NCBI GenBank assembly: GCA_020852515.1
Contig: JADZAS010000015.1
Span: 372,001-436,000, forward strand
Length of the DNA: 64,000 bases
Source of the DNA: Phycisphaerales bacterium
Lineage (GTDB): Bacteria; Planctomycetota; Phycisphaerae; Phycisphaerales; UBA5793
Direction of reading: 5' to 3'
Within the stretch, counting starts at the first letter, position 1, and each line of letters starts with the position of its first letter. The notes beneath the pieces are model-generated. The model had not been told where the DNA came from. It did not search any database and saw only the letters and a list, made by a program, of their open reading frames with translations. A program made the position numbers and the translations under genes. Below, piece after piece: positions 37,116 to 57,617 of the stretch.

Positions 37116-40106
37116 ATGACCCACCACCACGGACCGAACCGCCTTCTGCGGCCGCTTGCATTTGCAGCCGCCATCACCGCTTTTGCCGCCGCAGCCGCCT
37201 CGGCCGACGACGCCCGGCTCGACCTGGGCCGTCTCGCCTTCCACGAGGCCCAGGCCAACACCTTCACGCACAGCGCGCAGGACCGGGCCTGCCTGGCGAT
37301 CGACTCGAAGGGCAACGTGCTGGTGGTGTGGGACAGCCGGCGGCAGGAGCTGTACTCCTACGGCGTGGTGGGGCAGTACTTCGATCCGCTCGGCCGGCCG
37401 ATCGGCGGCGAGATGCGCATCAACGCTCATGCGCCGGGCATGCAGCACGAGTCCGCCGTCATGTTCGACGGCCAGGACCGCGCCTGGGTCGCGTGGGAAT
37501 CCAACGATCAGGACGGCGACGCTTCGGGCATCTACCTTCGCGCCTTCAGCGCCAAGGACGGCGGCTTTGCGCCGGTCACCGAAGAGATCGCCGTCAACAC
37601 GACGACGGTGGGCGCCCAGTGCGACCCGTCGATCGCGATCAACAGCAAGGGTGAAATCTGCGTCGTCTGGTGCAGCGCCGAAGTGGAAGGCCGCGCCGTT
37701 GCCACGGCCCGGCTGTTCGACTCGGCCGGCCAGCCCGCGAGTGAAGAGATCGTGATCGGCGCCTCCGCCGGCGGGCAGGATCGCCTTGCCACGGTCGCCG
37801 CGCTCTCTGATGGCCGGTTCGTCGTCGCGTGGGATCACGTGGACGGCAAGGGAGTTCCGACTGGTCTCGTGGCGCGGACCATTGCGGCCGGCCACGAGCC
37901 GGCCCTGGGCGCGGCCCAGCGTCTGACGCCTGAGCATGCCGGCCCGACGCACATCGAACCCGCGCTGGCCATCAACAGTCGCGATGAAGTCATCGTCACC
38001 TGGATGCGCCTGGGCGAAATGGCGCAGGGTTACGACGTGGTCGCGCGTCGCTTCGACGCCGACCTTCAGCCGATTTCCGGCGTGCAGATCGTCTCCGCAT
38101 TCACCGGCGCCTGGCAGTCGGGCGCGGCGGTGACGGTCGCGGGCAATGACGATTTCGTGATCGCCTGGAACGTGGACGGCGATAAGCAGCCGGTCACGCC
38201 CGATCTGCGCGTGCCCACGCCCTCCACGCTGATGGCGCGCACGTATGACGCGGCCGGCGCGGCGCTGGGCGAGGCGCGAGTCGTGAAGCAATCGGAATAC
38301 GGCAAGCACTCGCTCGCCGCCGCCTCCAACGCGCAGCGCATCGCGGCTTCAGACATCGGCACGCTGGCGTTCGCCTGGGACGGACGCGCCGGTGACGACG
38401 AGTCCGGCATCGGCCTGCTCGTCGCGGCTCCGGCTTCACTCGATCTTCCGGCCCCGCCCGCGGTTGAGCGGCTCGCGGCCGGGCACGAACTGACCGCTGA
38501 CGACGTCACGGTCCCGCCGATCCGCACCGAGAACTGGAAGCCGCAGGAGCGCGAACTGTTCCCGGCCCTGGCGGGTCCGGATTTTGGCTTCCAGGCGTTC
38601 ACGACCACCGAGTGGCAGCCGCCGGATCCTGATCTGGCCGTCGGACCCAACCACGTCGTGTGCGTCGTCAACATGCGCATCATGGTGCTCGACAAGGACG
38701 GCAACCAGATCTCCGAAGAATACCTCGAAGACTTCTGGGGCTCGTTGGGCGCGAACTACTTCGTCTTCGACCCCGTCGCTCAATACGACCACTACAGCGA
38801 TCGCTTCGTCGTCGCCGCAGCCGAACACGAAGGCGGCAACTCGAGCCAGAGCCGCATGGACATCGCCGTGTCCAAGACGTCCAATCCCGCGGACGGCTGG
38901 CACAAGTATCGCTTCGCGCTCAATTCGATCGGATCGTTCGTTGACTTCGAAAACCTGGGCATCGGCGAGGATGCGTACTTCATCAGCGCCGACTACTTCG
39001 GCGGCGGCGGCAACAACATCCACATCTTTGAAAAGGCGCCGATGCTCGTCGGCAACCCGATCACGATGCGCTGGATCCGCACCGTCAACGACATCATCTC
39101 GCTCGCCAGCACCGACGACTTCGACGCGAATTCGCCGGCGCAGTACTTCGCGTCGAGCTTCGCCGCGGGCAGCAACCAGATCCGCCTGTACGCGCTGCGC
39201 AATCCCAACACGAACCCGACGCTGACGCAGTTCAATCTCACGGTGCCGGGCTTCTCGAACCCGCCCAGCGCGCCGCAGCGCGGCTCGTCGAACCGGCTGG
39301 CGACGATCGACCGCCGCATCAAGCACGGCGTGCACCGCGACGGCTCGCTCTACCTGGCGCACGCCACCGGCGAGAACAACATCGCCCGCGTCCGCTGGTA
39401 CGAAATCGCAATGAACGGCTGGCCGACTTCGGGCCAGAACCCGACGCTCACGCAATCGGGCAATCTCGATCCCGGCGCGGGCCAGTACTCCTGGTTCGGC
39501 GACATCGGCGTCGATGCCGATGGCGACATGGTCATCGTCGCCAACCGCTCATCGACGGCCGACTACCCGTTCGTCTCTCGCTTCGTGCGCAAGGCCGGCG
39601 ATGCGACCGGCACGTTCCGCGCCGAGTCGCGCCTCGTTGAGAGCACCGGCGCTCACACCGGCGGCCGCTGGGGAGACTACGCCGGCGTCGATGAAGATCC
39701 GGCCGAGCCCGGCGTCTTCTGGTCGCACCACGAGTACAACGAAGGCACGGGCACGAACTGGCGCACCTGGGTCGGCCGCGTCGACTCCGACCAGGCGCTC
39801 GTGCTCGAAGCGCCCACCGTGCTCACGCGCGGCAGCCTCGAGACGTTCACGACGCGCGCGGCCAAGCCCGGCGCCACCGTGTACGTCGTCTACAGCACGC
39901 GCGGCCTGGGCTCGACGTACGTGCCCGCGCTCGACGCCACGCTCAAACTCGCCCAGCCCAGACTCGCCGGCTCATCGATCGCCGACGCGTCCGGTGTCGC
40001 GACGCTGAACATGGTGATTCCCAACAACGCCCCGCGCGCGCCCGTGTGGATCCAGACGATCGAGAACCGCAACACGTCCAACGTGGTCGCGGCGACGATC
40101 AACTGA
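37116..40106 (+). CDS. large secreted beta-propeller-like protein
   Basis: A 996-residue exported protein. The start ATG at 37116 gives a signal peptide (LLRPLAFAAAITAFAAAAASA). Residues 35-440 contain repeats of the type ACLAIDSKGNVLVVWDSRR, SIAINSKGEICVVWCSAE and ALAINSRDEVIVTWMRLG, spaced about 55-60 residues apart, which fit blades of a beta-propeller. A second region (about 480-890) starts with WQPPDPDLAVGPNHVVCVVN and also has propeller-like units. The last 100 residues (LEAPTVLTRGSLETFTTRA to NTSNVVAATIN) match the C-terminal module of the paralogue cluster at 51-57.6 kb. No catalytic motif is evident. A strong terminator follows the gene. Confidence 0.78.
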   Translation: MTHHHGPNRLLRPLAFAAAITAFAAAAASADDARLDLGRLAFHEAQANTFTHSAQDRACLAIDSKGNVLVVWDSRRQELYSYGVVGQYFDPLGRPIGGEMRINAHAPGMQHESAVMFDGQDRAWVAWESNDQDGDASGIYLRAFSAKDGGFAPVTEEIAVNTTTVGAQCDPSIAINSKGEICVVWCSAEVEGRAVATARLFDSAGQPASEEIVIGASAGGQDRLATVAALSDGRFVVAWDHVDGKGVPTGLVARTIAAGHEPALGAAQRLTPEHAGPTHIEPALAINSRDEVIVTWMRLGEMAQGYDVVARRFDADLQPISGVQIVSAFTGAWQSGAAVTVAGNDDFVIAWNVDGDKQPVTPDLRVPTPSTLMARTYDAAGAALGEARVVKQSEYGKHSLAAASNAQRIAASDIGTLAFAWDGRAGDDESGIGLLVAAPASLDLPAPPAVERLAAGHELTADDVTVPPIRTENWKPQERELFPALAGPDFGFQAFTTTEWQPPDPDLAVGPNHVVCVVNMRIMVLDKDGNQISEEYLEDFWGSLGANYFVFDPVAQYDHYSDRFVVAAAEHEGGNSSQSRMDIAVSKTSNPADGWHKYRFALNSIGSFVDFENLGIGEDAYFISADYFGGGGNNIHIFEKAPMLVGNPITMRWIRTVNDIISLASTDDFDANSPAQYFASSFAAGSNQIRLYALRNPNTNPTLTQFNLTVPGFSNPPSAPQRGSSNRLATIDRRIKHGVHRDGSLYLAHATGENNIARVRWYEIAMNGWPTSGQNPTLTQSGNLDPGAGQYSWFGDIGVDADGDMVIVANRSSTADYPFVSRFVRKAGDATGTFRAESRLVESTGAHTGGRWGDYAGVDEDPAEPGVFWSHHEYNEGTGTNWRTWVGRVDSDQALVLEAPTVLTRGSLETFTTRAAKPGATVYVVYSTRGLGSTYVPALDATLKLAQPRLAGSSIADASGVATLNMVIPNNAPRAPVWIQTIENRNTSNVVAATIN

Positions 40107-40133
40107 TCCTCGCGACATCCTGCAGTTCATTCA

Positions 40134-40168
40134 CCCGGCCGCGCTCCGCGCGGCCGGGCTGTTTTTTT
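40134..40168 (+). terminator. rho-independent terminator
   Basis: Perfect 10-base arms CCCGGCCGCG and CGCGGCCGGG around a 5-base loop, followed by CTGTTTTTTT. It lies 27 bases after the stop of the large secreted protein gene. Confidence 0.92.
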
Positions 40169-40290
40169 CCACCCCCGCGTGGGCACGCGAGCAGCCCGGC
40201 TATGATCGCAGTGCCCCGCCGCGATTGCGGCCCGGCGCGTCTGACTCTGCCATTCCATCCGGGTGAAAGCCCGGGTGCGGAGATTGCCTC

Positions 40291-41208
40291 ATGCTCCCCA
40301 AGCCGCCGCCGCGCCTCGGCCAACTCGGCTACCTCTACTTTCCGCCCTACCGCATCGAAGGCTACTCCATCGCCGGCGAAGCCACCGCCGTCATGGTCCC
40401 GGAGCTGGAGGTCTGCTTTGACATCGGCTTGTGCGCCCGGCCGATGCTCTCGGCCAAGTACGTCGCCATCACGCACGGACACATGGACCACGTCGCCGGC
40501 CTCCCGTACTACTTCAGCCAGCGCTGGTTCCAGGGCATGGGCATGGGCACGTGCGTGTGTGATCGGCGCATCGAGCCGGCGGTGCGCAACATGATGCTCG
40601 GCTGGGTGGACCTCGAACAACAGCGCACATCGCACGAGATCATCGGCCTGGCGCCGGGCGAGACGCACGAGATCAAGAACAACCTGTTCCTCGGGCCGTG
40701 TGAAGTGGATCACACCGTCCCGAGCGTCGGCTGGAGCGTCGTCGAGCGCCGCACGAAGTTGCGCGAGGAGTTCATCGGCTTGCCTCAGGAGAAGTTGCGC
40801 GATCTAAAGCTGGGCGGGACGGAGATCACGCGCGAGCTGCGCGTGCCGCTGGTGGCGTATATTGGGGACACGCTGCCGGGACCACATCTGCTAGCGGATG
40901 TCGTGCGCAAGGCGCGACTGCTCATCATCGAGTGCACGTTCTTCGAACCCGACCACAAGGAGCGCGCGGTCGTCGGCAAGCACGTGCACGTCGATGACAT
41001 CGCCGAACTGCTCGAGCGCGTGCAGGCCGAAGCGGTGGTGCTGACGCACATCTCGCGGCGCACGAACCTCGGAGCGGCCAAGAAGATGCTGCACGATCGG
41101 CTCGGCGCGGAGGGCGCGCGCCGCGTGCACCTGCTCATGGATCACGTCGCCAATCGCGCGCGCTATGAGCAGCAGTGCGCCGAAGCAATCGAGAGCGAGT
41201 CGCGCTGA
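40291..41208 (+). CDS. metallo-beta-lactamase-fold hydrolase, RNase Z-like
   Basis: A 305-residue soluble protein of the metallo-beta-lactamase superfamily. The metal motif is AITHGHMDHVAGLPYY (H62, H64, D66, H67). A later histidine in PCEVDHTVPSVGWSVVERR and an aspartate in VAYIGDTLPGPHLL complete a two-metal site in the RNase Z/phosphodiesterase arrangement, and LTHISRRTN supplies the final histidine. It may process RNA 3' ends, but a long exosite arm typical of bacterial RNase Z is not recognisable, so another phosphodiester substrate is possible. It precedes dnaA on the same strand with a separate promoter region between. Confidence 0.85.
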   Translation: MLPKPPPRLGQLGYLYFPPYRIEGYSIAGEATAVMVPELEVCFDIGLCARPMLSAKYVAITHGHMDHVAGLPYYFSQRWFQGMGMGTCVCDRRIEPAVRNMMLGWVDLEQQRTSHEIIGLAPGETHEIKNNLFLGPCEVDHTVPSVGWSVVERRTKLREEFIGLPQEKLRDLKLGGTEITRELRVPLVAYIGDTLPGPHLLADVVRKARLLIIECTFFEPDHKERAVVGKHVHVDDIAELLERVQAEAVVLTHISRRTNLGAAKKMLHDRLGAEGARRVHLLMDHVANRARYEQQCAEAIESESR

Positions 41209-41239
41209 AAAACTTTTGCGTGTCTCACGGAAGTTGCCT

Positions 41240-41286
41240 GAATCGCGCGATTCGGGGTTGACAACCGCGCGAGGAAGAATTACCTT
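41240..41286 (+). promoter_or_regulatory. candidate dnaA promoter with palindromic operator
   Basis: GAATCGCGCGATTC at 41240-41253 is a perfect 14-base palindrome. Four bases on stands TTGACA (41258-41263), a perfect -35, and 17 bases further TACCTT (41281-41286), a weak -10. The order palindrome, -35, -10, dnaA suggests a regulated promoter. No perfect DnaA box is present in the 195 bases before dnaA. Confidence 0.55.
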
Positions 41287-41403
41287 TGTCCCGTCCGACC
41301 GACGCCGGCAGTGACAGCGGCTCCGTTCAGTTTCGTGGTGGTGCAGCGCGGTCGGCGGTGGAGTTTTCCGTAACCAGACTTCCGTTCAGGAAAGTGTCAG
41401 CCC

Positions 41404-42906: not shown

Positions 42907-42929
42907 GCACCGTCATCCTGGCCGGGCCT

Positions 42930-43430
42930 TCAGCGCCACGTCGCCCATGATGAACCGCCCGCCATGTCGCGCATGCGATCCGGCAGGCGGATCCACTGAG
43001 CCAGCAGAATGGCGCTGCCCACCAGCGCGATGAGCAGATACGGCGGCCCGCCGAGCAGCGCCGCCACCGCGGCCAGGAGCGTCGGCGCCTGGATCAGTGC
43101 CGCAAAGGTGAGTACGGCGCCAGACACCTGCGATGTGACGACGACTTCGCCACGGCGAGCCTTCGCGTCAACGCGTCGCACGATGACCAGGCCGATGACG
43201 AGATTCAGAACCATCACAAGCACCGAGATCGCGCCGAGAAACACAGGGAGCGACTGGTTCGCGCCCATCAGCGGGCCGCGGCTGGCGCTCAGTCCCAGCA
43301 CGATCGCGGCGAAGGTGAGCGCTCCAAGCGCCATGGCCCCGACAACCAGCCGCGCCTGCCGGATCGCCGCCTCGATCTGCCCGGTCCTGCTATCCGCCGC
43401 ATCTTCAGTTATTTGCGTCTGTCCCGCCAT
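42930..43430 (-). CDS. small integral membrane protein
   Basis: A 166-residue protein with a hydrophilic N-terminus of about 25 residues and four hydrophobic helices (VVGAMALGALTFAAIVLGLSA, LPVFLGAISVLVMVLNLVIGLVIV, GAVLTFAALIQAPTLLAAVAALL, LLIALVGSAILLAQWI). No family recognised. It is convergent with dnaA (24 bases between stops). The 347 bases upstream contain the candidate origin. Confidence 0.7.
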   Translation of the reverse strand: MAGQTQITEDAADSRTGQIEAAIRQARLVVGAMALGALTFAAIVLGLSASRGPLMGANQSLPVFLGAISVLVMVLNLVIGLVIVRRVDAKARRGEVVVTSQVSGAVLTFAALIQAPTLLAAVAALLGGPPYLLIALVGSAILLAQWIRLPDRMRDMAGGSSWATWR

Positions 43431-43505
43431 GGTTACACCCCTCGATCAGCGAGGCTGACTGGCCCCGCTGGCGTCTCGCGCCGGATCAATTCAGCCTGAC
43501 TGTCA

Positions 43506-44763: not shown

Positions 44764-46275
44764 CTAACGGCGAGATTCGGCGGGGAGGTCATCAATGCTC
44801 TTGTCACCAAGAGTATCCACCGCGGTCCACTCCAGCGCGCGGCCCAGGGCGCTCTGGGCCTGCTCCCAGCCGATGAACTCCGGGTCGGCCGCCAGGCCGC
44901 GCAGAAGTTCGATCTCTCCCGGCCTCAGCGGCGTGAGCCGGCCGATGGACAGCGCCGCCTCCTGCCGCACCATGAGCGATTCATCGCCCAGCAGGCCCAC
45001 AAGGATCCGCACCTGCAGCGGCTCATCCGCCCGGTAGCGGCCGATCTCGCTGGCCACTCGATACCGCACCTGCTCCACCGGCACCCGCGACGCAATCTCC
45101 AGGCTCGCAAGCACCTCGGGGTCGTAGGAGTCGATCGCGAGCAGCGCTTCCAGTGCGGCCACGCGCCGGTAGTCCATGACGCGCGGCTCGGTGAGCAGCA
45201 GTGTCAGGCGCGGCACGGCCGGGCGCGCCACCGGGCCAAGCAGCTGCAGCGCCCGCAGGGCCGCATCCATTCGACGGTCATCCGCATCGATCGCCGCGAT
45301 GATCTCATCCACCGCCGGAGTGGCCGCAAGCCCAAGTCGCCCGAGTGCGCGAATGGCGTTGGCCCCCACCATGCTGGACGGGTCGTCGATGAGTTCGGTC
45401 AGCTTCGGCGCCGCCACCTCGGCCATGCTGCCGAACTTGCCCAGCACATCGCACACTTCCGATCGAACCTCAGCCCGCTCGTCGGCCAGCGCCTCGACCA
45501 GCGGCTCGATCGCATCGGGATGCAGCGGCCGAAGGAAGTCAAAAACCCGCGCCGCACGCGTCCGCACCGCCACGCGGCTGTCGCTCAAGCACCCAGCCAC
45601 GCGCCGGGCGCAGCGGCCGGCATCGACGATGTGGTCCGCCCCGGCGATGAGCGAAAGCGCATTGAGCGACTCGATGCGAATCGTCGGATCCGCATCCTCC
45701 GTTGCCAGCAGCAGTGCCCGCTCGGCGACGTCATCGCGCAGACGCATGTCGGAGATGAGCTGCACCGCCCGCAGCCGGGTGGGGCGACCGGCTTCGATGA
45801 TCGCCGCGCAGCGGTGCGCAAAGAACCGGCCGTACTCGGAGATCTCGCGGTTGTGGCGGCGGAACCACTCCGGGTTCGATGCGTTCACCCGGGCGTCCGC
45901 CTCGTCGAGCACCCATGGGTTGTCGGTCCAGGGCATGACGATCATCAATGCGGTGGTGGGGATCAGCGCCGTCCAGCCCTGCTCCTGCACCCGCGGCAGG
46001 ACCGCCAGCGTCGAGCCGCACACGATCAGCAAAGCGCCCAGCAGGGCCTGCATGCGGTAGCGGCGCGTGCGCAGGAGGTTGCGCTGCCTCCGGGCGTCGT
46101 GGCCGCACTCGGGACACACAAACCCCCGGCTGCCGGTCATGTCGTACCAGCAACTCGGGCACCGCGGCCGCCCGCGCGAGCGGTCGGCAAAGCCGGCCCG
46201 GTAGAGGACGAGCACGCCGACGGCGCCGAGCAGCGCTGCGACGAGAAAGAGGATGACACAGGCGAGCACGGACAA
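44764..46275 (-). CDS. membrane protein with zinc ribbon and HEAT repeats
   Basis: A 503-residue protein. An N-terminal membrane helix (LACVILFLVAALLGAVGVLVLYRAGFA) is followed by a zinc ribbon (RCPSCWYDMTGSRGFVCPECG), a second helix pair at about 75-112, then HEAT-like repeats from about 165 to 480 (for example DPTIRIESLNALSLIAG, RAEVRSEVCDVLGKFGS, SSMVGANAIRALGRLGL, ESLMVRQEAALSIGRL). HEAT repeats build a protein-binding scaffold. It stands just upstream of mutM on the same strand. Partner unknown. Confidence 0.8.
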   Translation of the reverse strand: MSVLACVILFLVAALLGAVGVLVLYRAGFADRSRGRPRCPSCWYDMTGSRGFVCPECGHDARRQRNLLRTRRYRMQALLGALLIVCGSTLAVLPRVQEQGWTALIPTTALMIVMPWTDNPWVLDEADARVNASNPEWFRRHNREISEYGRFFAHRCAAIIEAGRPTRLRAVQLISDMRLRDDVAERALLLATEDADPTIRIESLNALSLIAGADHIVDAGRCARRVAGCLSDSRVAVRTRAARVFDFLRPLHPDAIEPLVEALADERAEVRSEVCDVLGKFGSMAEVAAPKLTELIDDPSSMVGANAIRALGRLGLAATPAVDEIIAAIDADDRRMDAALRALQLLGPVARPAVPRLTLLLTEPRVMDYRRVAALEALLAIDSYDPEVLASLEIASRVPVEQVRYRVASEIGRYRADEPLQVRILVGLLGDESLMVRQEAALSIGRLTPLRPGEIELLRGLAADPEFIGWEQAQSALGRALEWTAVDTLGDKSIDDLPAESRR

Positions 46276-46645
46276 TCGTAGGAGCCGGCCGCGAAAGCCG
46301 GTCCGGGGCAGCGTCCAGGTAGCGAGCTGGTCAGATCGACGACATCACCTTGTCCGCCAGCCCGGCGGGGATGTACTGAGCGGCGAGCCCATCGCAGTTC
46401 ACCGGTTGCGTGCCTCAAACCACGAGAAATCCACCCTGATCAAGTGTCGTTATGGCGCTTTGTTCTCGACGGTGTGGCGTTCCGCAGGTACGTTGGAGCC
46501 GCGTTACTGCATGCTGTCGCCCATGGCGCGGGGTGGCCGCGGGTCGCAGGGGCTACTGGCGCCGTTCTCAGTCGGTGTTGCGGTGGATGGAGTCGTCATC
46601 TGTCGATGGCGAATTTGTCGCCGCCCTCTTCGAAGGAGGCGTCCT
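46276..46645. other. divergent intergenic region
   Basis: 370 bases between the HEAT-repeat gene and the divergent secreted-protein cluster. It carries a ribosome site (GAAGGAGG) at its right end; no clear promoter pair, repeat or small gene could be identified. Confidence 0.4.
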
Positions 46646-49285
46646 ATGAGACGTCCTTTCAAGCGCGTTCACAGTGGATTCTCGACCATCTCGCTGCTCG
46701 GAGCCAGTACAATCTTGCTGGCGGCTGCGGGCGAAACCGTTTGGCACGTCAACTCGGCGGCCACTTGGGAGGGAAGGTGGGCCGCACCGACAGTCGGGGT
46801 GGAAGCCGCTGCTGCCGCCGTGTCGGCGGGCAGCGCGGAAGCGGAGAGCGAGATGCTGACCACGCCGATCTTCAAGCCGTTCGTGCCTGTGCGCATTGCG
46901 CCGCCCAGCGGCTATTCCTCCGGCGAAGTGATGGCGCTCAACGAAGCAGGGCAGGCGGTCGGCTGGATGTGGAACGACTCCGCCGAAGTCGAGTACCCGT
47001 TCTTCTTCGATCCTGCGGGTGGCGTCACGATGCTCGACCTGCCCACGGGCGCCGATGCCGGCGGAGCGCTGAGCCTCAACAGCGACGACCCGCCGATGAT
47101 CGTCGGCTATGCGCACGACACCACGCTCGACGAGGATTTGGGCGCGGTCTGGTCATCCGATGGCGACTTCGACGGCTACATCTTTGATGTCGAGACCCCG
47201 ATCCACGGCAACGGAGTGAACGCCTCCGAGCGGATCGCCTGCAACTACAAGGATTCAGGCGACAATCATTCGCTCGTCTGGGAAGACGAGTACAACTACT
47301 GGAATCCGGCTTCGACCACATCGAGCGCCGCCTGCGGAGTCAACTCGAGCGGCAAGGTCGTCGGCTGGCACCTCGTGAGCAGCGTGTCGCACGCGTACAC
47401 CTGGGTGCCCGATACGCTGACGGACATTCATCCGAACCCGTTTGACGCCAGCGGCGCGCTTGCCATCAACGATGGCGGTTACATCGGGGGTTGGGTGGAT
47501 GACGACGGCGAATTTCTGGCGGCGCTTTGGACGCCGCTGACACCGGGCGTGTACACCGTCGAGCCGTTCGCCGCGGGGGCGGATGCCGCAGTGATGGACC
47601 TCAACGACGAGGGCGAGATGGTCATCATGCGCACCGACGGTACGGCCGGTGTGGCCATCTGGAACAAGCGCGGCAGCATCAACAGCGCTGACCTGCTTGA
47701 CAGCATCACCCTGATGCGCGGTGCGACGGATGTGATCGCCTCCGGCCGGGCCATCAACAACGCCGGCTGGATCGGCGGCAGTTACAAAGCGGGCGGCACG
47801 GGCGACCCGCTGCCGTGCCTGGTGATTCCGTATGACGTAGACAACAACGGCGAGCCGGACTACCGCGAGATTCTCGACGATCCGGAGAATCTGGACAGCA
47901 ATGACAACTGGCTTCTTGACTGGGCTGAGAACATGCGCGTCGGCTTGCACTCGCCCAATTCATCAGCGGACCCCGAAGGGGCTATCGATCCGGCTCAACT
48001 CGTGCGCCTGGGCGTGAACGTCGGACCGGCAGGCATTGAAGACCGGCCGGAATCAATCGCCGGCGAGTACTGGGTCGAAGACATTCTGCATCCGGAAGTG
48101 GATGACTGCGCTTCATGCACTGGATTCCATACTGCCGTGACCAGTTGGGGCACGGGCGAGGGCCGCGCCAACGAGAATCTGACCTCGGAGATCCTGATTC
48201 GGGTGCACTCGATGATGGGGCCGGAGGAGTTCGGCGACAGCGAAGCCCTTCCCGACCCCGAAGCGCCGCAGGAGAAGCAGGCGGCGCTCGATGATCTGCG
48301 GCTCTTCGCGTACCGATTCGCGCGCTGCATTGACTACCTGCAATGGGGCAACGAATCTTTCGGCGGGGCGCGGGGCTATCGGTTCCGCGAGGATGAGTTC
48401 GATTGTGATTCATTCGATGAAGGTACGTTGTTTCAGTATCTGCCGGCCAACTGCAAGGCGCTCGCGGTGAGTGCGGTGCAGGACTGGCAGGCGGAGATGC
48501 TGTGGGCGGCGCTGGAAGGATCGGCCCTGGCCGGTCGGCCGCTGCGGATGACCAGTTGCGGGATCAGCGATGGCAACGTGTACAACGGATACGAGGCCCA
48601 GGACCCGAATGACGCAGGTCGTTACCTGACGACCAAGGTGGCTGACTGGTGCAACTCCAACCAGGCATACTTCTCGATGCATGTGCATTACAATGAGGCG
48701 CAGCCGGCGCTGGACGCCATTCAGCGCCTGGTGGATGAGACGGGCGCGCCTTGGGACGTGCCGAACTGGCGCATCTCGACGGAAGTCGGGGCTATGGCGG
48801 ACTTTCAGAATGATGACTGGTGGCTTGAGGAAGTCGATCCGTTCGGCGTCACCAACATCCAGATCCACCAGATGTTCTTCTGGGGCACTACGAATCCACC
48901 GACGGGAGAGAGTTGGGAAGATTTCATCAACCGCTGGGAGTCTGACGCAGACCGTTGGAATCCCGTCGGATTGGAGGCCGGCTTCCGCATCGACGATCTC
49001 TTCGGCGAGTTCAATGATGCGGACTTCGTCGGACTGTGCTGGTCCACGCTCCAGTGGGACAAGGGATCAGTCGGACAGCCCAGCCGCTTCCTCGTCGAGG
49101 GACTTCGCGCCACCCAGGTGCGCAACGACGAGGATCTGTTCGAGTCAGGCAACTACACGAACCGCTACACTCCGATCATGGAGGCGTATGAGACGACGGG
49201 CGCGACCTACAAGATCGCCAACTTCGCGCCCCATGCATTCGGGTGCGATGAGAGTGAAGTCTGCCCCGGCTGCGGCGGGCAGTGA
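46646..49285 (+). CDS. secreted HAF-repeat protein with clan GH-A-like domain
   Basis: An 879-residue exported protein; GAAGGAGG precedes the ATG. The signal segment (STISLLGASTILLAAAGETVW) is followed by HAF-like repeats at about 85-390: VMALNEAGQAVGWMWNDS, ACGVNSSGKVVGWHL, ALAINDGGYIGGWVDD, GRAINNAGWIGGSYKAG. A short calcium-binding-like DVDNNGEPDYREI comes next. The second half (about 435-860) looks like a TIM barrel: CIDYLQWGNESFGG places E570 after N as in the acid/base of clan GH-A, and NWRISTEVGAMADFQNDDWW places E713 where the nucleophile is expected. Polysaccharide hydrolysis is therefore possible; no family was assigned. Ends in a CPGCGGQ tail without the module shared by its neighbours. 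Confidence 0.72.
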   Translation: MRRPFKRVHSGFSTISLLGASTILLAAAGETVWHVNSAATWEGRWAAPTVGVEAAAAAVSAGSAEAESEMLTTPIFKPFVPVRIAPPSGYSSGEVMALNEAGQAVGWMWNDSAEVEYPFFFDPAGGVTMLDLPTGADAGGALSLNSDDPPMIVGYAHDTTLDEDLGAVWSSDGDFDGYIFDVETPIHGNGVNASERIACNYKDSGDNHSLVWEDEYNYWNPASTTSSAACGVNSSGKVVGWHLVSSVSHAYTWVPDTLTDIHPNPFDASGALAINDGGYIGGWVDDDGEFLAALWTPLTPGVYTVEPFAAGADAAVMDLNDEGEMVIMRTDGTAGVAIWNKRGSINSADLLDSITLMRGATDVIASGRAINNAGWIGGSYKAGGTGDPLPCLVIPYDVDNNGEPDYREILDDPENLDSNDNWLLDWAENMRVGLHSPNSSADPEGAIDPAQLVRLGVNVGPAGIEDRPESIAGEYWVEDILHPEVDDCASCTGFHTAVTSWGTGEGRANENLTSEILIRVHSMMGPEEFGDSEALPDPEAPQEKQAALDDLRLFAYRFARCIDYLQWGNESFGGARGYRFREDEFDCDSFDEGTLFQYLPANCKALAVSAVQDWQAEMLWAALEGSALAGRPLRMTSCGISDGNVYNGYEAQDPNDAGRYLTTKVADWCNSNQAYFSMHVHYNEAQPALDAIQRLVDETGAPWDVPNWRISTEVGAMADFQNDDWWLEEVDPFGVTNIQIHQMFFWGTTNPPTGESWEDFINRWESDADRWNPVGLEAGFRIDDLFGEFNDADFVGLCWSTLQWDKGSVGQPSRFLVEGLRATQVRNDEDLFESGNYTNRYTPIMEAYETTGATYKIANFAPHAFGCDESEVCPGCGGQ

Positions 49286-49358: not shown

Positions 49359-50738
49359 ATGCGACAAATGCGGTTTGGAACCGTTATCCAGTTATCAATT
49401 CTCATGATCTGCTCTTCCGTGTTGTCTCAGGAATACCGGTATGCGACGATCCAATTGCGTTCACAGAACGAATCACTGGCATCTGATGTCGCCGACGGGC
49501 TAAATCTGTTCGGGGATACCGTTGGGCAAGCGCCCTTGGAGAGCTTCTGGCTTCCTCGACCGGCTCTCTGGCCGCGAGATGGTGGCGTCATCGACCTCGG
49601 AACGCTCGGCGGCGACCTGGGCAGCGCCAGAGACATTAATGAAGTCGGCGAGGTCGTGGGCTCGTCCGGCTTCGAACCGGGTGGAAGCATCTTCGTCGGC
49701 CATGCGTTCTTGTGGCGCAATGGAATCATGATCGAGCTTGGGACGTTGGGGGGTGAGTCCAGCGGGGCCGGCGCGATCAACAATCAGGGCCAGATCGTCG
49801 GAGACTCGGAGTACGAGTTCGGGAACTATGCAGATCGTGGGTTTCTTTGGGAGAACGGTGTAATGACCGCGCTCCCGGCAGCGCCGCCTGAGCTTTACTC
49901 GAGGGGCGCAAATGATATCAACGAGAAGAGCGAGGCGATTGGTTATGGCGGGGGGTTTGACCTTCAGGTAAATGCCCTGCTGTGGCGCAATGGCGAGATG
50001 ATCGACCTGGGTTCACTCTCGGGCCAAGGAAGTCGCGCCGAAGCGATCAATGACCTCGGCCAGATTGTGGGTCGGTCAGAAGCGGCCAATGGCAACGGGC
50101 ATGCAGTGGTGTGGATCGACGGTCGCATCATTGACATTCACGATGGACGATACGGTGCATACAGCTGGGGCCAGGATATCAACAATGCCGGCCACGTCAT
50201 TGGCGCGATCGGCGACTTCGCTACCACGCGCGAAATGTTCATCCGCGAGTCTGGCCATCCCATGCGCCTGCTCAAAGACCTGATGCCGCCGCGCACCCGT
50301 GAAGACTGGCGGCTCGATCGTGGCCATATCAATGACGCCGGACAGATGTCCGTCGCGGCGAACATAAGGGGAACCCTTGATTACTTCGCGCTCCTGCTCA
50401 CGCCCGTCGATCCCTCGCTGGACCTCGCCGCCCCCGCGCCCGGCCGCGCCGGCGAGGCGAACGCCCTCAGCGTGACCAACGCGACGCCAAGCGCACGGGT
50501 CGTATTTCTCTACAGCAAACACGGCGGGGGCACGCGCATCCCCGGCTGCGACCTCCAGCAGAACGCGCTGCAACTCGATCAGCCAACCATCATCGGCAGC
50601 GCCATCGCCGACGGCAACGGCGTGGCCGCCATCACCCGCACCGTCCCCCTCGTCGCCCGCGGGCAGACCATCCTCTTCCAGGCCGTCGTCCAGAACGAGT
50701 GCGCGATCAGCCAGTTGGTGGTGCATGAGTTTGAGTAG
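49359..50738 (+). CDS. secreted HAF-repeat protein with shared C-terminal module
   Basis: A 459-residue exported protein with a signal peptide ending about residue 23. Residues 45-355 are HAF repeats, each with an ALWxxGxxxDLGTLGG strand and an INxxGQIVG turn: LGTLGGDLGSARDINEVGEVVG, LGTLGGESSGAGAINNQGQIVG, LGSLSGQGSRAEAINDLGQIVG. The C-terminal 100 residues (LAAPAPGRAGEANALSVTN onward) are the module also found in the four paralogues that follow. HAF proteins are extracellular in predicted location, with unknown ligand. Second gene of the plus-strand cluster. Confidence 0.82.
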   Translation: MRQMRFGTVIQLSILMICSSVLSQEYRYATIQLRSQNESLASDVADGLNLFGDTVGQAPLESFWLPRPALWPRDGGVIDLGTLGGDLGSARDINEVGEVVGSSGFEPGGSIFVGHAFLWRNGIMIELGTLGGESSGAGAINNQGQIVGDSEYEFGNYADRGFLWENGVMTALPAAPPELYSRGANDINEKSEAIGYGGGFDLQVNALLWRNGEMIDLGSLSGQGSRAEAINDLGQIVGRSEAANGNGHAVVWIDGRIIDIHDGRYGAYSWGQDINNAGHVIGAIGDFATTREMFIRESGHPMRLLKDLMPPRTREDWRLDRGHINDAGQMSVAANIRGTLDYFALLLTPVDPSLDLAAPAPGRAGEANALSVTNATPSARVVFLYSKHGGGTRIPGCDLQQNALQLDQPTIIGSAIADGNGVAAITRTVPLVARGQTILFQAVVQNECAISQLVVHEFE

Positions 50739-50789: not shown

Positions 50790-50821
50790 AAGGCATCAAG
50801 GCATCAAGGCATCAAGGCATC
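50790..50821. repeat. 8-base tandem repeat
   Basis: Four perfect copies of AAGGCATC, preceded by a looser run of GGCACT/GGCATT units from about 50757. It lies in the 263-base gap between the HAF gene and the first BNR paralogue. Such short arrays vary by slippage. Confidence 0.85.
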
Positions 50822-51001: not shown

Positions 51002-52585
51002 ATGCAGCATCTCAGATTGGTGGGGCGGGTGGGCGCGGGGTGCAGCGCCCTCGTCATCGCGGCCGCGTTCACGGTCTCGGCGGCGGCTCAGCAAGGCGTG
51101 CAGGTCAACCTCGACGCCAACGGGATGAACATCCCCGGCGATGCGGCCAACGAGCCGAGTTTCGCCATCGACCCGACCAACCCCCTGCACCTCGTCGCCG
51201 GCTGGCGGCAGTTTCCCACCATCAACTCCGACGCCCGCTACGCCGGGGTCGCGGTGAGCACCGATGGCGGGCTGTCGTGGTTCAATGAAGGCACGCTGCC
51301 TCCGCCGCCCGATGCGCCCAACGCACAGCAGTCTGACCCCGTGCTCGCGGTCGATTGGAACGGCGTGTTCTTTTACAACAGCCTCATCTTCCGAGGCAAC
51401 CACCTCGGCGTGGCAACGTACCGCAGCGACACGGGCGGCTTCTCGTGGGAGGAGCCAGTGTTCATGCGCAACAGTTCCGCCGACAAGAACTGGTACGAGA
51501 TCGACTACCTCTCCGGCCACCACTACGGCATCTGGCAGTTCCCTGGCGAGTTTGCCCGCAGCACCGACGGCGGGCAGACCTGGAGCCGCTGGGACGTGGG
51601 CGCGAGCATCTTCGCGCACATCGGCATCGGGCCCGACGCCGAGGTCTACATCGGCTGGTGGGAGAACGCGGGCGTGAAGGTGCGGCGCTCCGACAACGCG
51701 GGCGATCCAAACGCGACGCCGAGTTTCACGCCTGAGGTCACGGTGCCGCTGGGCGGCATGGTCTGGCAGCCGCCGGTCAACCCGGACGGCGGGGCGAGCC
51801 AGGTGTGGATCGCCACCGATCATCGTGACGGGCCGCAGCGCGGCTGGGTGTACGTGCTCAGTTCATCCGAGACTTCCAACGACGTGGCCGACGTCATGTT
51901 CTCGCGCAGCACCGATCGCGGCCAGACGTGGAGCGCGCCGATCCGCGTCAACGATGATGCGCCGGGCCAGGATTACCAGTGGATGGCGGCGATGTCGCTC
52001 GCGCCCGGCGGCCGGCTCGACGCGGCGTGGTTTGACACGCGCGACGACCCCGGGCACCGTCTCTCGCGCCTCTATTACGCGCACTCGTATGACGGCGGCG
52101 CGACGTGGTCGCCCAGCCGCGCCGTGGGCGACCAGTTCGACTCGCGCGTCGGTTGGCCGCAGCAGCGCAAGATGGGCGACTATTTCCACGCGCGCTCGGA
52201 CAACGGTTCGATGAGTTTCGTGCACGCGGCGACGTACAACGGCGAGCAGGACATTTACTACCGCCGCCTGCACCCGATGGTGCTCGAATCGACGGACCTC
52301 TTCGCCGGCCAGCCGGCGCAGTTCAGCGTGAGCGAGTGCCGCCCGGGCGAGCGCGTGTGGATCGTCTACAGCCTGGCCGGCGCGGGCTACACAGACGTGC
52401 CGCAACTGGATGTGCCGGTGAATCTCGCCCAGCCGCGCCTGGCCGTCGGGCCGCGCGCGGCGGACGCCAACGGCGATGTGTCTTGGATGGTCACCATGCC
52501 GCCGCAGTCGCGCGGCCAGCACATCTACTTCCAGGCCATCCAGCGGCAGAACGCCAGCAACGTGCTCGAAGCCGACGTGCAGTGA
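51002..52585 (+). CDS. secreted BNR/sialidase-fold protein, paralogue 1
   Basis: A 527-residue exported protein; signal peptide ends ...VSAAAQ. The mature start QGVQVNLDANGMNIPGDAANEPSFAIDP is shared by all four paralogues. Propeller blades show BNR-like Asp-box motifs: STDGGLSWFN, RSDTGGFSWEE, STDGGQTWSRW, STDRGQTWSAP, SYDGGATWSPS. The consensus SxDxGxTW is that of sialidase-type propellers, but the catalytic arginine triad of true sialidases is not recognisable, so binding or another hydrolase role is equally likely. The C-terminal 95 residues (LFAGQPAQFSVSECRPGERV to NASNVLEADVQ) are the shared module. The ATG at 51002 was chosen because the signal peptide starts there. Confidence 0.8.
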   Translation: MQHLRLVGRVGAGCSALVIAAAFTVSAAAQQGVQVNLDANGMNIPGDAANEPSFAIDPTNPLHLVAGWRQFPTINSDARYAGVAVSTDGGLSWFNEGTLPPPPDAPNAQQSDPVLAVDWNGVFFYNSLIFRGNHLGVATYRSDTGGFSWEEPVFMRNSSADKNWYEIDYLSGHHYGIWQFPGEFARSTDGGQTWSRWDVGASIFAHIGIGPDAEVYIGWWENAGVKVRRSDNAGDPNATPSFTPEVTVPLGGMVWQPPVNPDGGASQVWIATDHRDGPQRGWVYVLSSSETSNDVADVMFSRSTDRGQTWSAPIRVNDDAPGQDYQWMAAMSLAPGGRLDAAWFDTRDDPGHRLSRLYYAHSYDGGATWSPSRAVGDQFDSRVGWPQQRKMGDYFHARSDNGSMSFVHAATYNGEQDIYYRRLHPMVLESTDLFAGQPAQFSVSECRPGERVWIVYSLAGAGYTDVPQLDVPVNLAQPRLAVGPRAADANGDVSWMVTMPPQSRGQHIYFQAIQRQNASNVLEADVQ

Positions 52586-52631
52586 TCCAAGGTGAAGTGA
52601 ATCGGGCAACTAGAGAGGACGAGGGGGAGAC

Positions 52632-54284
52632 ATGCGCACATCACCACGAACAGCGCTGCGCCGGGCCGGTGCGGCGCTGCTGTTGACGCTGCCAGCGCTG
52701 GGTTCATCGGCGCTCGCGCAGCGCGGCGTGCAGATCAACACCGACGCCCTGGGCAACGACATCATCGGCGATGCGGCCAACGAGCCGACCTTTGCCGTCA
52801 GCCCTGTCGATCCTGATCGGCTCGTTGTCGGCTGGCGCCAGTTTCCGACCATCAACTCCGACTCGCGCTACGCCGGGTACGCGTGGTCGAGCGACGGCGG
52901 GCTGACGTGGACCAACGGCGGCACGCTTGCCGGCCCGCCGGGCTACCAGAACCCCGAACAGTCCGACCCGCTTGTCAAGGTCAACGCGCAGGGCGTTTTC
53001 TATTACTGGAGCGAGGTCTTTCGGCCCAACTACGCACAGTGGATGTACCAGTCCGCCGACGGCGGGCAGACGTGGTCCGTGCCGGACCCCATCGAAGATC
53101 CGACCAGCGGCGACAAGCCGTGGCTGGCCATCGACAACACGGGCGGGATGGGAGACGGGCACCTGTACGGCGGATGGAATCACTTCACCCTCGGGGGCTA
53201 CTGCTATGTCGAGTCCACCGACGGCGGCCACACGTGGACGCCAAGCAAGCGCATCGCCGACGCCGGCGGCACGCAGTGGATGCTGCACATGGTCGTAGGC
53301 CCCGAGGGCGAGGTGTACGCCGGCTGGAAGAACTACAACCAGAACGCGATCCTCATCACCAAGTCCACCAACGCCAAGGACCCCAACGTCACCACGACCT
53401 TCGACGCCTTCGGCGCCGGCGGGCGCGATGGCCTTGATATCCGCATCGACGCCGCGAACGACCCGGGCAACGTGCCCGTGAACCCGACCGGCTTTCACCA
53501 GTTGTTTCTCGGCGTCGATTCATCCGGCGGGCCTCGCCGCGGCTGGGTCTACGCCCTCTGGCCCGACGACCGGCGCGATGGCGCGGATCTCTCGTTTGCG
53601 CGCAGCAGCGACGGCGGCTTCACGTGGGAGACGGGCATTCGCGTCAACGACGACGGGCCGGGCGCGCTGCAGTGGATGCCGGCGATGAGCGTCGCGCCCA
53701 ATGGCCGCATCGACGTTTTCTGGTTCGACACGCGTAACAGCAGCGGACATCCCGTGCCGTGGTCGCAGCTCTTCTACACCTTCTCGACCGACGGCGGGTC
53801 AAATTGGGCGCCGAATCGGCGACTCTCGGACGCGTTCGATACCACGCTCGGCTGGCCGCAGCAGCAGAAGATCGGCGACTACATGGAGAGCGTGTCAGAC
53901 GATCGCGGCGCGGGGGTCGTCTATCCGGCGACGTTCAACGGCGGGCAGGATCTCTGGTTCATGCGCCTCGAACCGTTCCAGGTGAATGTGAGCGCGCTCG
54001 TGGCCGGTCAGCAGGGCAGCGCGAGCGTGGCCGGGGCGCGGGCCAATGAGAGCGTCTGGCTCGCCGCGACTCTGAGCGGCCTGGGCAGCACGTACGTTGC
54101 GCAGCTCAACGTAACGCTCAGTCTCGACCGCCCGTTCCAGGTCGGCTCGATGAAGACGACCGACGCGAGCGGCGCGGCGCAGTGGAGCCTCCCCGTGCCG
54201 CGCCTGGCCGCCGGCCGCACCCTCTGGTTCCAGGCCGTCCAGCGCGAGAGCACGAGCAACGTCGCCCAGGCGGTGGTGGAGTAA
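52632..54284 (+). CDS. secreted BNR/sialidase-fold protein, paralogue 2
   Basis: A 550-residue exported protein, the most divergent of the four. The mature start RGVQINTDALGNDIIGDAANEP, the Asp-box motifs (SSDGGLTWTNG, SADGGQTWSVP, STDGGHTWTPS, SSDGGFTWETG, STDGGSNWAPN) and the C-terminal module (LVAGQQGSASVAGARANES to STSNVAQAVVE) mark it as a paralogue. It lacks the FADKNWYTID-type block as such and has SGDKPWLAIDNTGG instead. 46 bases separate it from paralogue 1. Confidence 0.82.
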   Translation: MRTSPRTALRRAGAALLLTLPALGSSALAQRGVQINTDALGNDIIGDAANEPTFAVSPVDPDRLVVGWRQFPTINSDSRYAGYAWSSDGGLTWTNGGTLAGPPGYQNPEQSDPLVKVNAQGVFYYWSEVFRPNYAQWMYQSADGGQTWSVPDPIEDPTSGDKPWLAIDNTGGMGDGHLYGGWNHFTLGGYCYVESTDGGHTWTPSKRIADAGGTQWMLHMVVGPEGEVYAGWKNYNQNAILITKSTNAKDPNVTTTFDAFGAGGRDGLDIRIDAANDPGNVPVNPTGFHQLFLGVDSSGGPRRGWVYALWPDDRRDGADLSFARSSDGGFTWETGIRVNDDGPGALQWMPAMSVAPNGRIDVFWFDTRNSSGHPVPWSQLFYTFSTDGGSNWAPNRRLSDAFDTTLGWPQQQKIGDYMESVSDDRGAGVVYPATFNGGQDLWFMRLEPFQVNVSALVAGQQGSASVAGARANESVWLAATLSGLGSTYVAQLNVTLSLDRPFQVGSMKTTDASGAAQWSLPVPRLAAGRTLWFQAVQRESTSNVAQAVVE

Positions 54285-54309
54285 ACCTCAACAGACGAGG
54301 AGTTTGAAG

Positions 54310-55911
54310 ATGATCCGGATGGAACAGAATCGCGCTGCAGCCGCCACTTTGCTTGTCGCTCTCACGGGCGCCCTTTGCGCCTCAGGCGCGATCGGGCAGC
54401 AGGGCGTGCAGATCAACATAGACGGGCAAGGCTTCAACATCCCCAACGACGCGGCGAACGAGCCGAGCTTTTCCATCGATCCGCTTCACCCCCAGCACAT
54501 GGTTGTAGGATGGCGCGAATTCCCCACCGTCAATTCGAATTCGCGGTATGCCGGCTATGCCGTGACGACCGATGGCGGCCTCACGTGGTACAACGGAGGA
54601 ACGCTTCCCCCACCCGACGGCTCACCCAACGGCGAGCAGTCCGACCCGGTCATCGCCGTCGATAATGACGGCAGGTTCTTCTACAACAGCCTGCTCTTCA
54701 CGGGTGGGCAACTCGGCATCCTGATCTACAACAGCGATACGGGCGGCTATTCATGGAACGACCCGCTCTACCTGTTCACGGGGTTCGCCGACAAGAACTG
54801 GTACACCATCGACCGCAGCGGCGCAAGCCGACATCACTATTGCAGTTGGGGGAACACCACGATCTACGTCTCGCGCAGCATCACCGAGGGAGCGACCTGG
54901 CAGACGCCGCAGCCGCTCGGCGCAGGCATCCGCTCCTATATGGAAACGGGATTGAACGGCGAGTTGTACCTGGCGTGGTGGGACTACAACGCGCAGCGCG
55001 TCGCATTTCGAACTTCCCGCAACGCAAGCGATCCAAACCAGACTCCGACGTGGAGTCCGGAAGTGCGGCTGCCGTTCGGGCGCATGCCTTCGGGTCTGCG
55101 CATCAACCCGGGCGGTGGGTCAGGCCAGGTCTGGATCATGGTTGACACGAGCGACGGCCCGAGTCGCGGCAACGTGTACGCCTGTTCATCATCGGTCCCC
55201 GCCAATGATGTCTGCGACGTCATGTTCGCTCGCAGCACCGACGGGGGGCAGACCTTCAGCACTCCCATCCGCATCAATGACGATCCGCCGGGCCAGGACT
55301 ATCAGTGGATGGCGAGTATCTCGATCGCGCCCTCCGGCCGGCTCGACGCGACGTGGTTCGACACGCGCGATGACCCCAATCACTTCATCTCCCGCCTCTA
55401 CTACTCGTACTCGTGGGATGGCGGCCTCACCTGGTCTCCCAACCGCGCCGTCGGCGATCCGTTCGATCCTTCGCTCGGCTACCCGCAGCAGAACAAGATC
55501 GGCGACTACTTCCAGTGCCAGTCCGACAATGGCTCGGTCAGCGTGATTCACCCCGCCACGTTCAATGGCGAGCAGGACATCTACTACCAGCGCCTGCACC
55601 CGATGGTGCTCGAATCATCGCCGCTCCGCGCCGGCGAGCAGGCGCAGTTCGCCGTGAGCGAAGCGCGGCCCGGCGAGCAGGCCTGGGTCGTCTACAGCCT
55701 CACCGGCCGCGGCTACACGAACATCGGCATGCTCGATGTCCCCGTCAACCTCGCCCGGCCGCAACTCGGCGCCGGCCCGCGCCTGGCCGATCAAAGCGGC
55801 AACGTGATGTGGACGGTCACGATGCCGCCCCAGTCACAGGGGCGAACCGTGTGGTTCCAGGCCATCCAGCGCGAGAACGCGAGCAACGTCATCGAGGCGG
55901 TGGTGGAGTAG
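54310..55911 (+). CDS. secreted BNR/sialidase-fold protein, paralogue 3
   Basis: A 533-residue exported protein. The ATG at 54310 follows GAGGAG at 7 bases; a TTG at 54304 is in frame. Signal peptide, then QGVQINIDGQGFNIPNDAANEP. Asp-box motifs: TTDGGLTWYNG, NSDTGGYSWND, STDGGQTFSTP, SWDGGLTWSPN. From KIGDYFQCQS to the C-terminus (138 residues) it differs from paralogue 4 at only three positions, while the upstream halves are clearly diverged, which points to gene conversion or a recent partial duplication. 25 bases separate it from paralogue 2. Confidence 0.82.
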   Translation: MIRMEQNRAAAATLLVALTGALCASGAIGQQGVQINIDGQGFNIPNDAANEPSFSIDPLHPQHMVVGWREFPTVNSNSRYAGYAVTTDGGLTWYNGGTLPPPDGSPNGEQSDPVIAVDNDGRFFYNSLLFTGGQLGILIYNSDTGGYSWNDPLYLFTGFADKNWYTIDRSGASRHHYCSWGNTTIYVSRSITEGATWQTPQPLGAGIRSYMETGLNGELYLAWWDYNAQRVAFRTSRNASDPNQTPTWSPEVRLPFGRMPSGLRINPGGGSGQVWIMVDTSDGPSRGNVYACSSSVPANDVCDVMFARSTDGGQTFSTPIRINDDPPGQDYQWMASISIAPSGRLDATWFDTRDDPNHFISRLYYSYSWDGGLTWSPNRAVGDPFDPSLGYPQQNKIGDYFQCQSDNGSVSVIHPATFNGEQDIYYQRLHPMVLESSPLRAGEQAQFAVSEARPGEQAWVVYSLTGRGYTNIGMLDVPVNLARPQLGAGPRLADQSGNVMWTVTMPPQSQGRTVWFQAIQRENASNVIEAVVE

Positions 55912-56039
55912 CTCGCGGAGTGACGGCAGATCAAGGTGCTTTTCTGCTTGCACCAGGGCGAGAAACGCGTTACCTTGACCATGCCGTCGCGTCCGCCGCG
56001 CGATGAAGCACCGTCCGCACCAGTGAAAGTGAGGTAGCC

Positions 56040-57617
56040 GTGCGCCAGACCACCAATTTGTGCAGAATGACTCTCATGATGCTCGTTGCCGCTCTCGCCG
56101 CGACGCCGGGGCTGGCCCAGCGCGGCGTGCAGATCAACACCGATGCGCTCGGGATGAACATCCCCGGCGATGCGGCGAACGAGCCAAGCTTTGCGATTGA
56201 CCCGACGGATCCTCAGCACATGGTGGTGGGGTGGCGGGAGTTTGCAACCAACACCTCCGACTTTCGGCTGGCGGGGTACGCGGTTACGCTCGACGGAGGG
56301 CTGACGTGGTACAACGGCGGCACGCTCGAGCCGCCGGAAGGATCGGGAAACGCGAATCAGACCGATCCCGTGGTCAAGTTCGATCGCAACGGCATGGTCT
56401 ATTACAACAGCATGATCTACCGCTCGACGCGCGACGGGCAGACGGTGTATCGCAGCACGGATGGCGGTTTTACGTGGGAGACGCCCAATTACATCCGTGA
56501 GAATTGCTTCTGCGACAAGAACTGGTACGCCATCGATGATCTGAACGGATTCCACTACGGCATCTGGCAGATCCCCGGCGAGTTTGCCCGCTCAATCGAC
56601 GGCGGCCGCACGTGGAATTCGTGGAGTGTCGGTGCATCCGTATTCGCGTTCGTGAATCCAGGTCCCGACAGTGAGGTCTACATCGGGTGGTGGGGAAGCG
56701 GAGTAGTGCTTCGTCGATCAGATAACGCTCGCGACCCGAACGCGACACCGACGTTTACCGCCGCCATCAGTATTCCCCTGGGTTCCGGTCTGTGGTATTC
56801 GCCGCTCAACCCGGATGGGGCGGCCAGCCAGATCAACGTCGTGGTGGATCATCGTGACGGCCCGCAGCGCGGCTGGGTATACATGCTGAGTTCTGCAGTT
56901 CGAACGGACGACGTTTGTGATGTGATGTTTGCTCGAAGCACTGATGGCGGTCGGACATTCAGCACACCGATGCGCGTGAACGACGACCCGCGTGGGCCGG
57001 ATTACCAATGGATGGCTGCCATGTCCATGGCGCCCAGCGGTCGCCTCGACGCAGTCTGGCTCGATACGCGCGACGATCCGAACCACTTCATCTCACGTCT
57101 CTACTACTCGTATTCATGGGACGGCGGATTGACGTGGTCGACCAACCGTCCAGTCGGCGATCCCTGGAATCCGTCGCTGGGCTGGCCCGGCGGTCAACGC
57201 AAGATCGGCGACTACTTCCAGTGCCAGTCCGACAACGGTTCGGTGAGCGTGATTCACCCCGCCACGTTCAACGGCGAGCAGGACATCTACTACCAGCGCC
57301 TGCATCCGATGGTGCTCGAGACTTCGCCGCTCCGCGCCGGTGAGCAGGCGCAGTTCGCCGTGAGCGAAGCGCGGCCCGGCGAGCAGGTCTGGGTCGTCTA
57401 CAGCCTCACCGGCCGCGGCTACACGAACATCGGCATGCTCGATGTCCCCGTCAACCTCGCCCGGCCGCAACTCGGCGTCGGCCCGCGCCTGGCCGATCAA
57501 AGCGGCAACGTCATGTGGACGGTGACGATGCCGCCACAGTCGCAGGGGCGAACCGTGTGGTTCCAGGCCATCCAGCGCGAGAATGCGAGCAACGTCATTG
57601 AAGCGGTCGTCGAGTAA
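56040..57617 (+). CDS. secreted BNR/sialidase-fold protein, paralogue 4
   Basis: A 525-residue exported protein starting at GTG 56040 with GAGGTAG just before. The signal segment MTLMMLVAALAATPGLAQ leads to RGVQINTDALGMNIPGDAANEP. Asp-box motifs: TLDGGLTWYNG, STDGGFTWETP, SIDGGRTWNSW, STDGGRTFSTP, SWDGGLTWSTN. Its first half resembles paralogue 1 (for example FHYGIWQIPGEFARS against HHYGIWQFPGEFARS), while its last 138 residues are nearly identical to paralogue 3, so it looks mosaic. It ends the cluster, 33 bases before a dispersed repeat. Confidence 0.82.
   Translation: MRQTTNLCRMTLMMLVAALAATPGLAQRGVQINTDALGMNIPGDAANEPSFAIDPTDPQHMVVGWREFATNTSDFRLAGYAVTLDGGLTWYNGGTLEPPEGSGNANQTDPVVKFDRNGMVYYNSMIYRSTRDGQTVYRSTDGGFTWETPNYIRENCFCDKNWYAIDDLNGFHYGIWQIPGEFARSIDGGRTWNSWSVGASVFAFVNPGPDSEVYIGWWGSGVVLRRSDNARDPNATPTFTAAISIPLGSGLWYSPLNPDGAASQINVVVDHRDGPQRGWVYMLSSAVRTDDVCDVMFARSTDGGRTFSTPMRVNDDPRGPDYQWMAAMSMAPSGRLDAVWLDTRDDPNHFISRLYYSYSWDGGLTWSTNRPVGDPWNPSLGWPGGQRKIGDYFQCQSDNGSVSVIHPATFNGEQDIYYQRLHPMVLETSPLRAGEQAQFAVSEARPGEQVWVVYSLTGRGYTNIGMLDVPVNLARPQLGVGPRLADQSGNVMWTVTMPPQSQGRTVWFQAIQRENASNVIEAVVE

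Follow-up and report, generated by a model that had tools for sequence, protein, structure and literature searches.

Six secreted proteins encoded close together in a planctomycete genome appear to end in the same way, and the question this locus raises is what a shared C-terminal tail does on proteins whose bodies differ. The locus lies in a 64,000-nucleotide stretch of a Phycisphaerales contig (JADZAS010000015.1), referred to here as the window. The initial annotation had proposed that one tail closes a large propeller-like protein, a HAF-repeat protein and four BNR paralogues, that it is a beta-sandwich separate from the domains it follows, and that its role is to anchor or sort proteins at the cell surface.

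Six tails in the window and two divergent relatives

All six tails are present as proposed, and each ends at the stop codon of its gene (Table 1). The domain measures about 105 residues rather than the approximately 95 first suggested, and the motif originally quoted for it (a start LxAGxxxxFxVSxAxPGxxV, a middle YSxxGxGxTxxP...LDxPxxxxxxxAD and an end FQAxQxxNxSNVxxAxV) fits the BNR tails best; the BNR2 tail, which is without the YS and PG of that motif, and the HAF tail, which is without its NxSNV, deviate from it. Ten alignment columns are invariant across the six. When tail pairs were compared with 300 shuffles, all 15 pairs scored far above them (z 11 to 89), and leave-one-out profiles recovered each tail from the 601 six-frame open reading frames of the window with E values of 1e-13 to 1e-53, including 1e-21 for the large propeller-like protein, which starts with a signal peptide at 37116. 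Together the shuffles and the profiles exclude chance resemblance. Recent gene conversion has left BNR3 and BNR4 with tails that are 97% identical, and these two are not independent observations. Judged on their sequences, all six tails belong to one homologous domain.

A model built from 101 sequences identifies two further, divergent copies in the window. One closes a small secreted protein and the other, a probable copy, a subtilase whose body matches Peptidase_S8 (E 3e-40); the body of the tailed HAF-repeat protein matches TIGR02913 HAF_rpt (E 8.5e-36). Another HAF-repeat protein, adjoining the tail cluster at 46253-49285 on the forward strand, has no tail and has a long C-terminal half that is unmatched.

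Table 1. Tail domains in the window, with the reading frames that they close
Feature	Position	Strand	ORF	HMM E value	Distance to stop	Remarks
Tail of large propeller-like protein	39786..40103	+	36969-40106	5e-31	ends at stop codon	
Tail of HAF-repeat protein	50403..50735	+	49359-50738	1e-35	0	
Tail of BNR paralogue 1	52265..52582	+	51002-52585	6e-33	0	
Tail of BNR paralogue 2	53964..54281	+	52632-54284	7.5e-30	0	
Tail of BNR paralogue 3	55591..55908	+	54310-55911	2e-31	0	converted with paralogue 4
Tail of BNR paralogue 4	57297..57614	+	56058-57617	2e-32	0	converted with paralogue 3
Divergent Cys-rich tail, 270-aa secreted protein	9157..9426	+	8629-9441	3e-14	4 residues	not in the initial annotation
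Probable divergent Cys-rich tail, S8 subtilase	61457..61762	-	61451-63970	0.003 (weak)	1 residue	not in the initial annotation

Predicted fold and relation to described families

Structure prediction bears out the proposed beta-sandwich, which is modelled as a separate unit both alone and beside a BNR propeller. An AlphaFold2 model of the stretch 39786..40103, computed with 38 tails, reached a pLDDT of 95.5 and a pTM of 0.87; it has nine strands and no helix of note, and nothing follows the last strand. The AlphaFold2 model of full-length BNR1 (86.6, with 22 further rows) places the propeller at about residues 48-423 and the tail at 424-527, with the last propeller strand and the first tail strand two residues apart. 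From these models we confidently predict an Ig-like sandwich that folds independently of the body.

In fold the matches are Ig-like; the C-terminal domain of Nir2 reaches Z 10.3, and neocarzinostatin (1nco) matches at Z 9.8 and 2.9 Å over 93 of 106 residues. Other matches, at Z about 8.5-9, are complement domains, alpha-2-macroglobulin domains and antibody V domains. Among small bacterial proteins neocarzinostatin is the nearest fold to the tail, by a small margin given that antibody V domains reach about 8.8. A profile of 101 tails searched against PDB sequences placed the C-1027 apoprotein first (E 0.0053), followed by actinoxanthin (0.011) and a third match at 0.38, and the register of the match agrees, at E 0.38 when a smaller alignment is used.

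No Pfam or NCBIfam model describing the tail was found with 101 tails as queries at E 0.1, and no model matched more than four of them. The best library matches were NCBIfam FlhE (0.0055, 4 of 101), Pfam Big_3_5 (0.0083, 2 of 101) and Ig_7 (0.011, 3 of 101), values that carry no weight with so many queries, and we reject assignment to a known family for want of a significant match. A search by title and abstract opening, which left subscription literature largely uncovered, found no paper on the domain.

Number, position and export

The initial annotation had expected a profile of the six tails to find further members in the same genome, a 4.72-Mb draft, and had named a profile that found none as the outcome that would count against it. 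The six-tail profile finds at least 115 matches at E 0.01 or better (best 150 of 179 candidates scored). With the 101-tail profile there are at least 149 (best 150 of 268 candidates scored), and the true number may be higher. The domain therefore recurs, as expected; it is real, separate, abundant and apparently undescribed.

Protein sets were taken from the surroundings of the six-tail-profile matches outside the window; the first model yielded 101 tail proteins, and the 101-sequence model 120. In the larger set the distance from the end of the domain to the end of the protein is at most 3 residues in 105 proteins, 4-25 in 15 and greater in none. Setting aside L065, which runs off its contig, and L087, a decayed fragment, leaves 118 complete proteins, in every one of which the tail is C-terminal. 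The same holds elsewhere: at 27 loci of named MAGs all 35 tail proteins end within 3 residues of the domain, and at 31 loci from searches of relatives and of the phylum, a set in which some genomes overlap and one locus comes from the source genome itself, 32 of 32 tails are C-terminal with gaps of 0-18. A single protein of the genome has two tandem terminal tails, as do its relatives in two other genomes. Three secreted proteins (L044:1496-1876, L095:486-995 and L095:899-1318, all on the reverse strand) consist of little beyond a signal peptide and a Cys-rich tail. No conserved motif was found in the 40 residues upstream of the tail in the 118 complete proteins.

By a rough rule, a signal-peptide-like start is present in 88 of 101 tail proteins, as compared with 60 of 130 control genes from the same loci; of the 13 that it misses, several resemble signal peptides on inspection and others have cut or uncertain starts. 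A lipobox-like sequence, with the cysteine expected of a lipid-anchored lipoprotein, occurs in just 8 of the 88, so that the tail proteins do not as a group look like lipoproteins. The annotation had also asked how many exported proteins carry the tail. An even sample of 400 kb, made up of twenty 20-kb stretches at round-number positions set regardless of tails and read with a simple gene caller, yielded 239 genes, 8 of them with tails; among its 71 signal-peptide-like genes 7 have one, a rough estimate that puts the tail on about a tenth of putative exported proteins.

Bodies carrying the tail, and copying between genes

Attachment to different folds, a further part of the original proposal, is evident from Pfam matches of the 101 full proteins. 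The HAF-like repeats of DUF3466 (24), FG-GAP (17) and S8 subtilase (7) head the tally, with beta-helix (6), M14 carboxypeptidase (4), BNR (4), GSDH (2), CHRD (2), GDSL lipase (2) and M28 peptidase (1) behind them (tallies from the best 25 of 26 and best 25 of 30 families). One hundred bodies fall into 33 clusters, 22 of which have a single member. Of 2683 pairs of similar tails, 2185 join bodies in which no similarity could be detected. The contrary possibility, that the tail is an integral part of one propeller fold, fails: its presence on subtilases, carboxypeptidases, HAF and FG-GAP proteins and its predicted folding alone exclude it.

The likeness among tails has more than one source. The BNR3 and BNR4 bodies are 38-86% identical per 50-residue block with silent sites near saturation, while from residue 401 the proteins are 96-100% identical and silent sites 72-97% identical. 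This pattern is the signature of a recent gene conversion between the two genes (54310-57617) that covers about the last 130 codons and spans the tail. Other pairs, from a set of 84 chosen beforehand for tails at least 60% identical, show the same pattern. Protein identity is higher in the tail than in the body in 347 of 382 pairs. At third codon positions, over all 420 pairs with related bodies, identity is 0.50 for tails and 0.38 for bodies (tail above body in 326); by chance one would expect about 0.39-0.50 and 0.35-0.44, respectively. Pure selection as the source of high tail identity is excluded for several pairs, in which silent sites agree too. These comparisons indicate that the tail spreads in part through gene conversion; besides being inherited it is copied from one gene to another, and its high identity therefore cannot be read as constraint alone.

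Distribution among genomes

All six genomes sampled from the window's family are positive, with 113 to at least 150 matches each, and the tail was found in none of 55 sampled genomes from five other families of the order at E 0.001. In a sample of 392 genomes from the whole phylum, 64 have the tail (best 12 candidates scored per genome). A scan of named genomes finds the tail in Planctomycetota and Phycisphaerales MAGs; two MAGs labelled Gemmatimonadetes (L136 and L151) have 11 tails each, which may reflect transfer or a wrong label. Identical match places show that the window's genus also comprises UBA5793, PLA1, PLA5 and KLAP200, and that PNC21 is the sixth genome of the family. The MAG PLA1 (WYBR01; L135, L137, L141, L159) is labelled Vicinamibacteraceae, a label that looks wrong because its match places equal those of a planctomycete genome of the window's genus. 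In PMC12213060 the family UBA5793 and the genus PNC21 in Phycisphaerales are named from a marine anammox consortium.

We compared this distribution with that of known sorting and secretion systems. Each of 24 tail-bearing genomes has 0-9 PEP-CTERM tags (any in 9), and each of 17 genomes of the order without the tail has 0-123 (any in 13), a difference with a Mann-Whitney p of 0.0007, uncorrected for kinship. Several tail-less genomes of the order are rich in these tags and tail-bearing genomes are mostly without them; the tail-rich family f62 had no match in any of nine genomes tested. The two do not simply replace each other, because the tail-less relatives of family f3 are also poor in PEP-CTERM, with none or one match. 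Four genomes of the order (G007, G012, G017 and G020) have neither tags nor tail. Exosortase is present in all six genomes of the window's family and absent from four of six tail-rich f62 genomes, which excludes it as a required partner.

T2SS-type (GspD) secretins were found in all 24 genomes tested, tail-bearing or not, and thus do not discriminate between the two. One 3563-residue open reading frame of the source genome (L160:2746-13437, reverse strand; about 267245-277936 of G000:C13) has 34 Secretin_N domains and one secretin pore, and so encodes a giant secretin whose periplasmic part is very long. Matches of the same kind lie in open frames of 3.6 to 5.0 thousand residues in genomes of the order both with many tails and with none, and no literature on a giant secretin with 34 Secretin_N domains was found. 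The T9SS component SprA (TIGR04189) was matched in none of 41 genomes, but no control genome matched either.

Interpretation of the tail

The most economical reading, and our best explanation, is surface sorting or attachment. We put at about even the chance that the tail is a common handle of this kind, in the form of an independently folding Ig-like C-terminal domain. The cargo would be exported via a Sec-type signal peptide, and the folded tail would then be bound by one shared partner, which may be an outer-membrane protein, a surface glycan or the biofilm matrix; this binding would hold the cargo outside the cell. Since the sequence ahead of the tail has neither a conserved linker nor a conserved cut site, cleavage is unlikely and the mature protein probably keeps its tail. 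In the lineages that use it, it seems to occupy the place that PEP-CTERM tags have in some related families. We favour a handle because of the C-terminal position, the signal peptides, the 33 body clusters, the separate fold, the distribution among genomes and the contrast with PEP-CTERM; of the role first proposed, what stands is its fit to strict position, export and distribution, and the surface function itself is what we infer from them. Counted on the other side are the presence of T2SS secretins in all 24 genomes tested, the tandem-tail lineage and the three tail-only proteins, for which a pure export tag would have no use, the near absence of PEP-CTERM from the tail-less f3 relatives, and the part of tail identity that reflects gene conversion and not constraint.

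A rather doubtful alternative is that the tail works as an accessory binding module, perhaps one for a biofilm-matrix polysaccharide, which acts on substrate or matrix and gives no signal read by a machine, its C-terminal place being an accident of duplication history. Ig-like folds are common binding modules, and the existence of tail-only secreted proteins, a tandem pair and a Cys-rich subfamily suggestive of loop diversification would suit it. However, a module of that sort is normally found inside proteins and in tandem arrays as well, whereas the tail is C-terminal throughout the three sets (118/118, 35/35 and 32/32), and proteases, lipase, HAF and FG-GAP proteins are cargo without a common substrate. 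It is improbable that the tail is a true export signal like the T9SS CTD, which an outer-membrane translocon would read before the signal is cut away. The logic would be the same, a Sec signal peptide with a C-terminal Ig-like sandwich, as PMC4804311 describes it, but no T9SS sorting model is among the matched families listed, there is no conserved linker for a cut, and the propeller and tail strands in the BNR1 model are two residues apart. More improbable still is a stability cap, in which a rigid C-terminal domain would protect against tail-specific proteases or aid folding and would have no role in location. The chain does end at the last strand, and the final residue is E, Q, N or D in 73 of 118 proteins, but a cap leaves unexplained the absence from other sampled families and the inverse relation to PEP-CTERM.

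Within the surface-handle reading, we tentatively suggest, as somewhat short of an even prospect, an undescribed sorting or attachment system of Planctomycetota. The neocarzinostatin-like Ig domain would serve as an address label, read by a receptor or machine present in tail-rich and missing in tail-less lineages, and gene conversion would keep the tails alike. Each of the C-terminal labels LPXTG, PEP-CTERM and T9SS CTD opened the way to a sorting machine, and with the label on at least 149 proteins of one genome and on none in certain relatives, the search for a partner becomes a direct comparison. A profile of the tail would also annotate many planctomycete proteins that are now bare at their ends. 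Relatives in the window's family are described as abundant companions in an anammox consortium (PMC12213060), and from this abundance the tail may matter for biofilm and granule surfaces.

Comparison with known systems

The neocarzinostatin-type apoproteins (C-1027, actinoxanthin and macromomycin) have a fold like that of the tail and match its profile weakly; these are stand-alone carrier proteins of Streptomyces. No Pfam model of neocarzinostatin matched any of the 101 tails at E 0.1, and we interpret the likeness as a shared fold with remote kinship possible, and not as membership. The bacterial Ig-like domains Ig_7 and Big_3_5 give the best weak Pfam matches, far short of significance, and are typically internal and tandem.

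In deployment the tail resembles the PEP-CTERM/exosortase system, which likewise places a C-terminal module on unrelated exported planctomycete proteins and expands genome-wide. PEP-CTERM is a short motif with a membrane segment (PMC1569441), whereas the tail is a folded domain without a hydrophobic segment. The tail is not itself a PEP-CTERM: it ends in a beta-strand, has no PEP and no helix, and no PEP-CTERM model is among the matched families listed.

None of the matched families listed for the 101 tails (E 0.1) is a T9SS sorting model, in Pfam and NCBIfam libraries that presumably hold such models. T9SS CTD structures are absent among the fold matches listed for the tail, which excludes nothing. 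The architecture is nonetheless shared in outline with the T9SS CTD of Porphyromonas (Bacteroidota), which, according to PMC4804311, is a C-terminal Ig-like beta-sandwich of seven strands on many Sec-exported proteins; in contrast, the tail has about 105 residues, nine predicted strands rather than seven, and no conserved linker.
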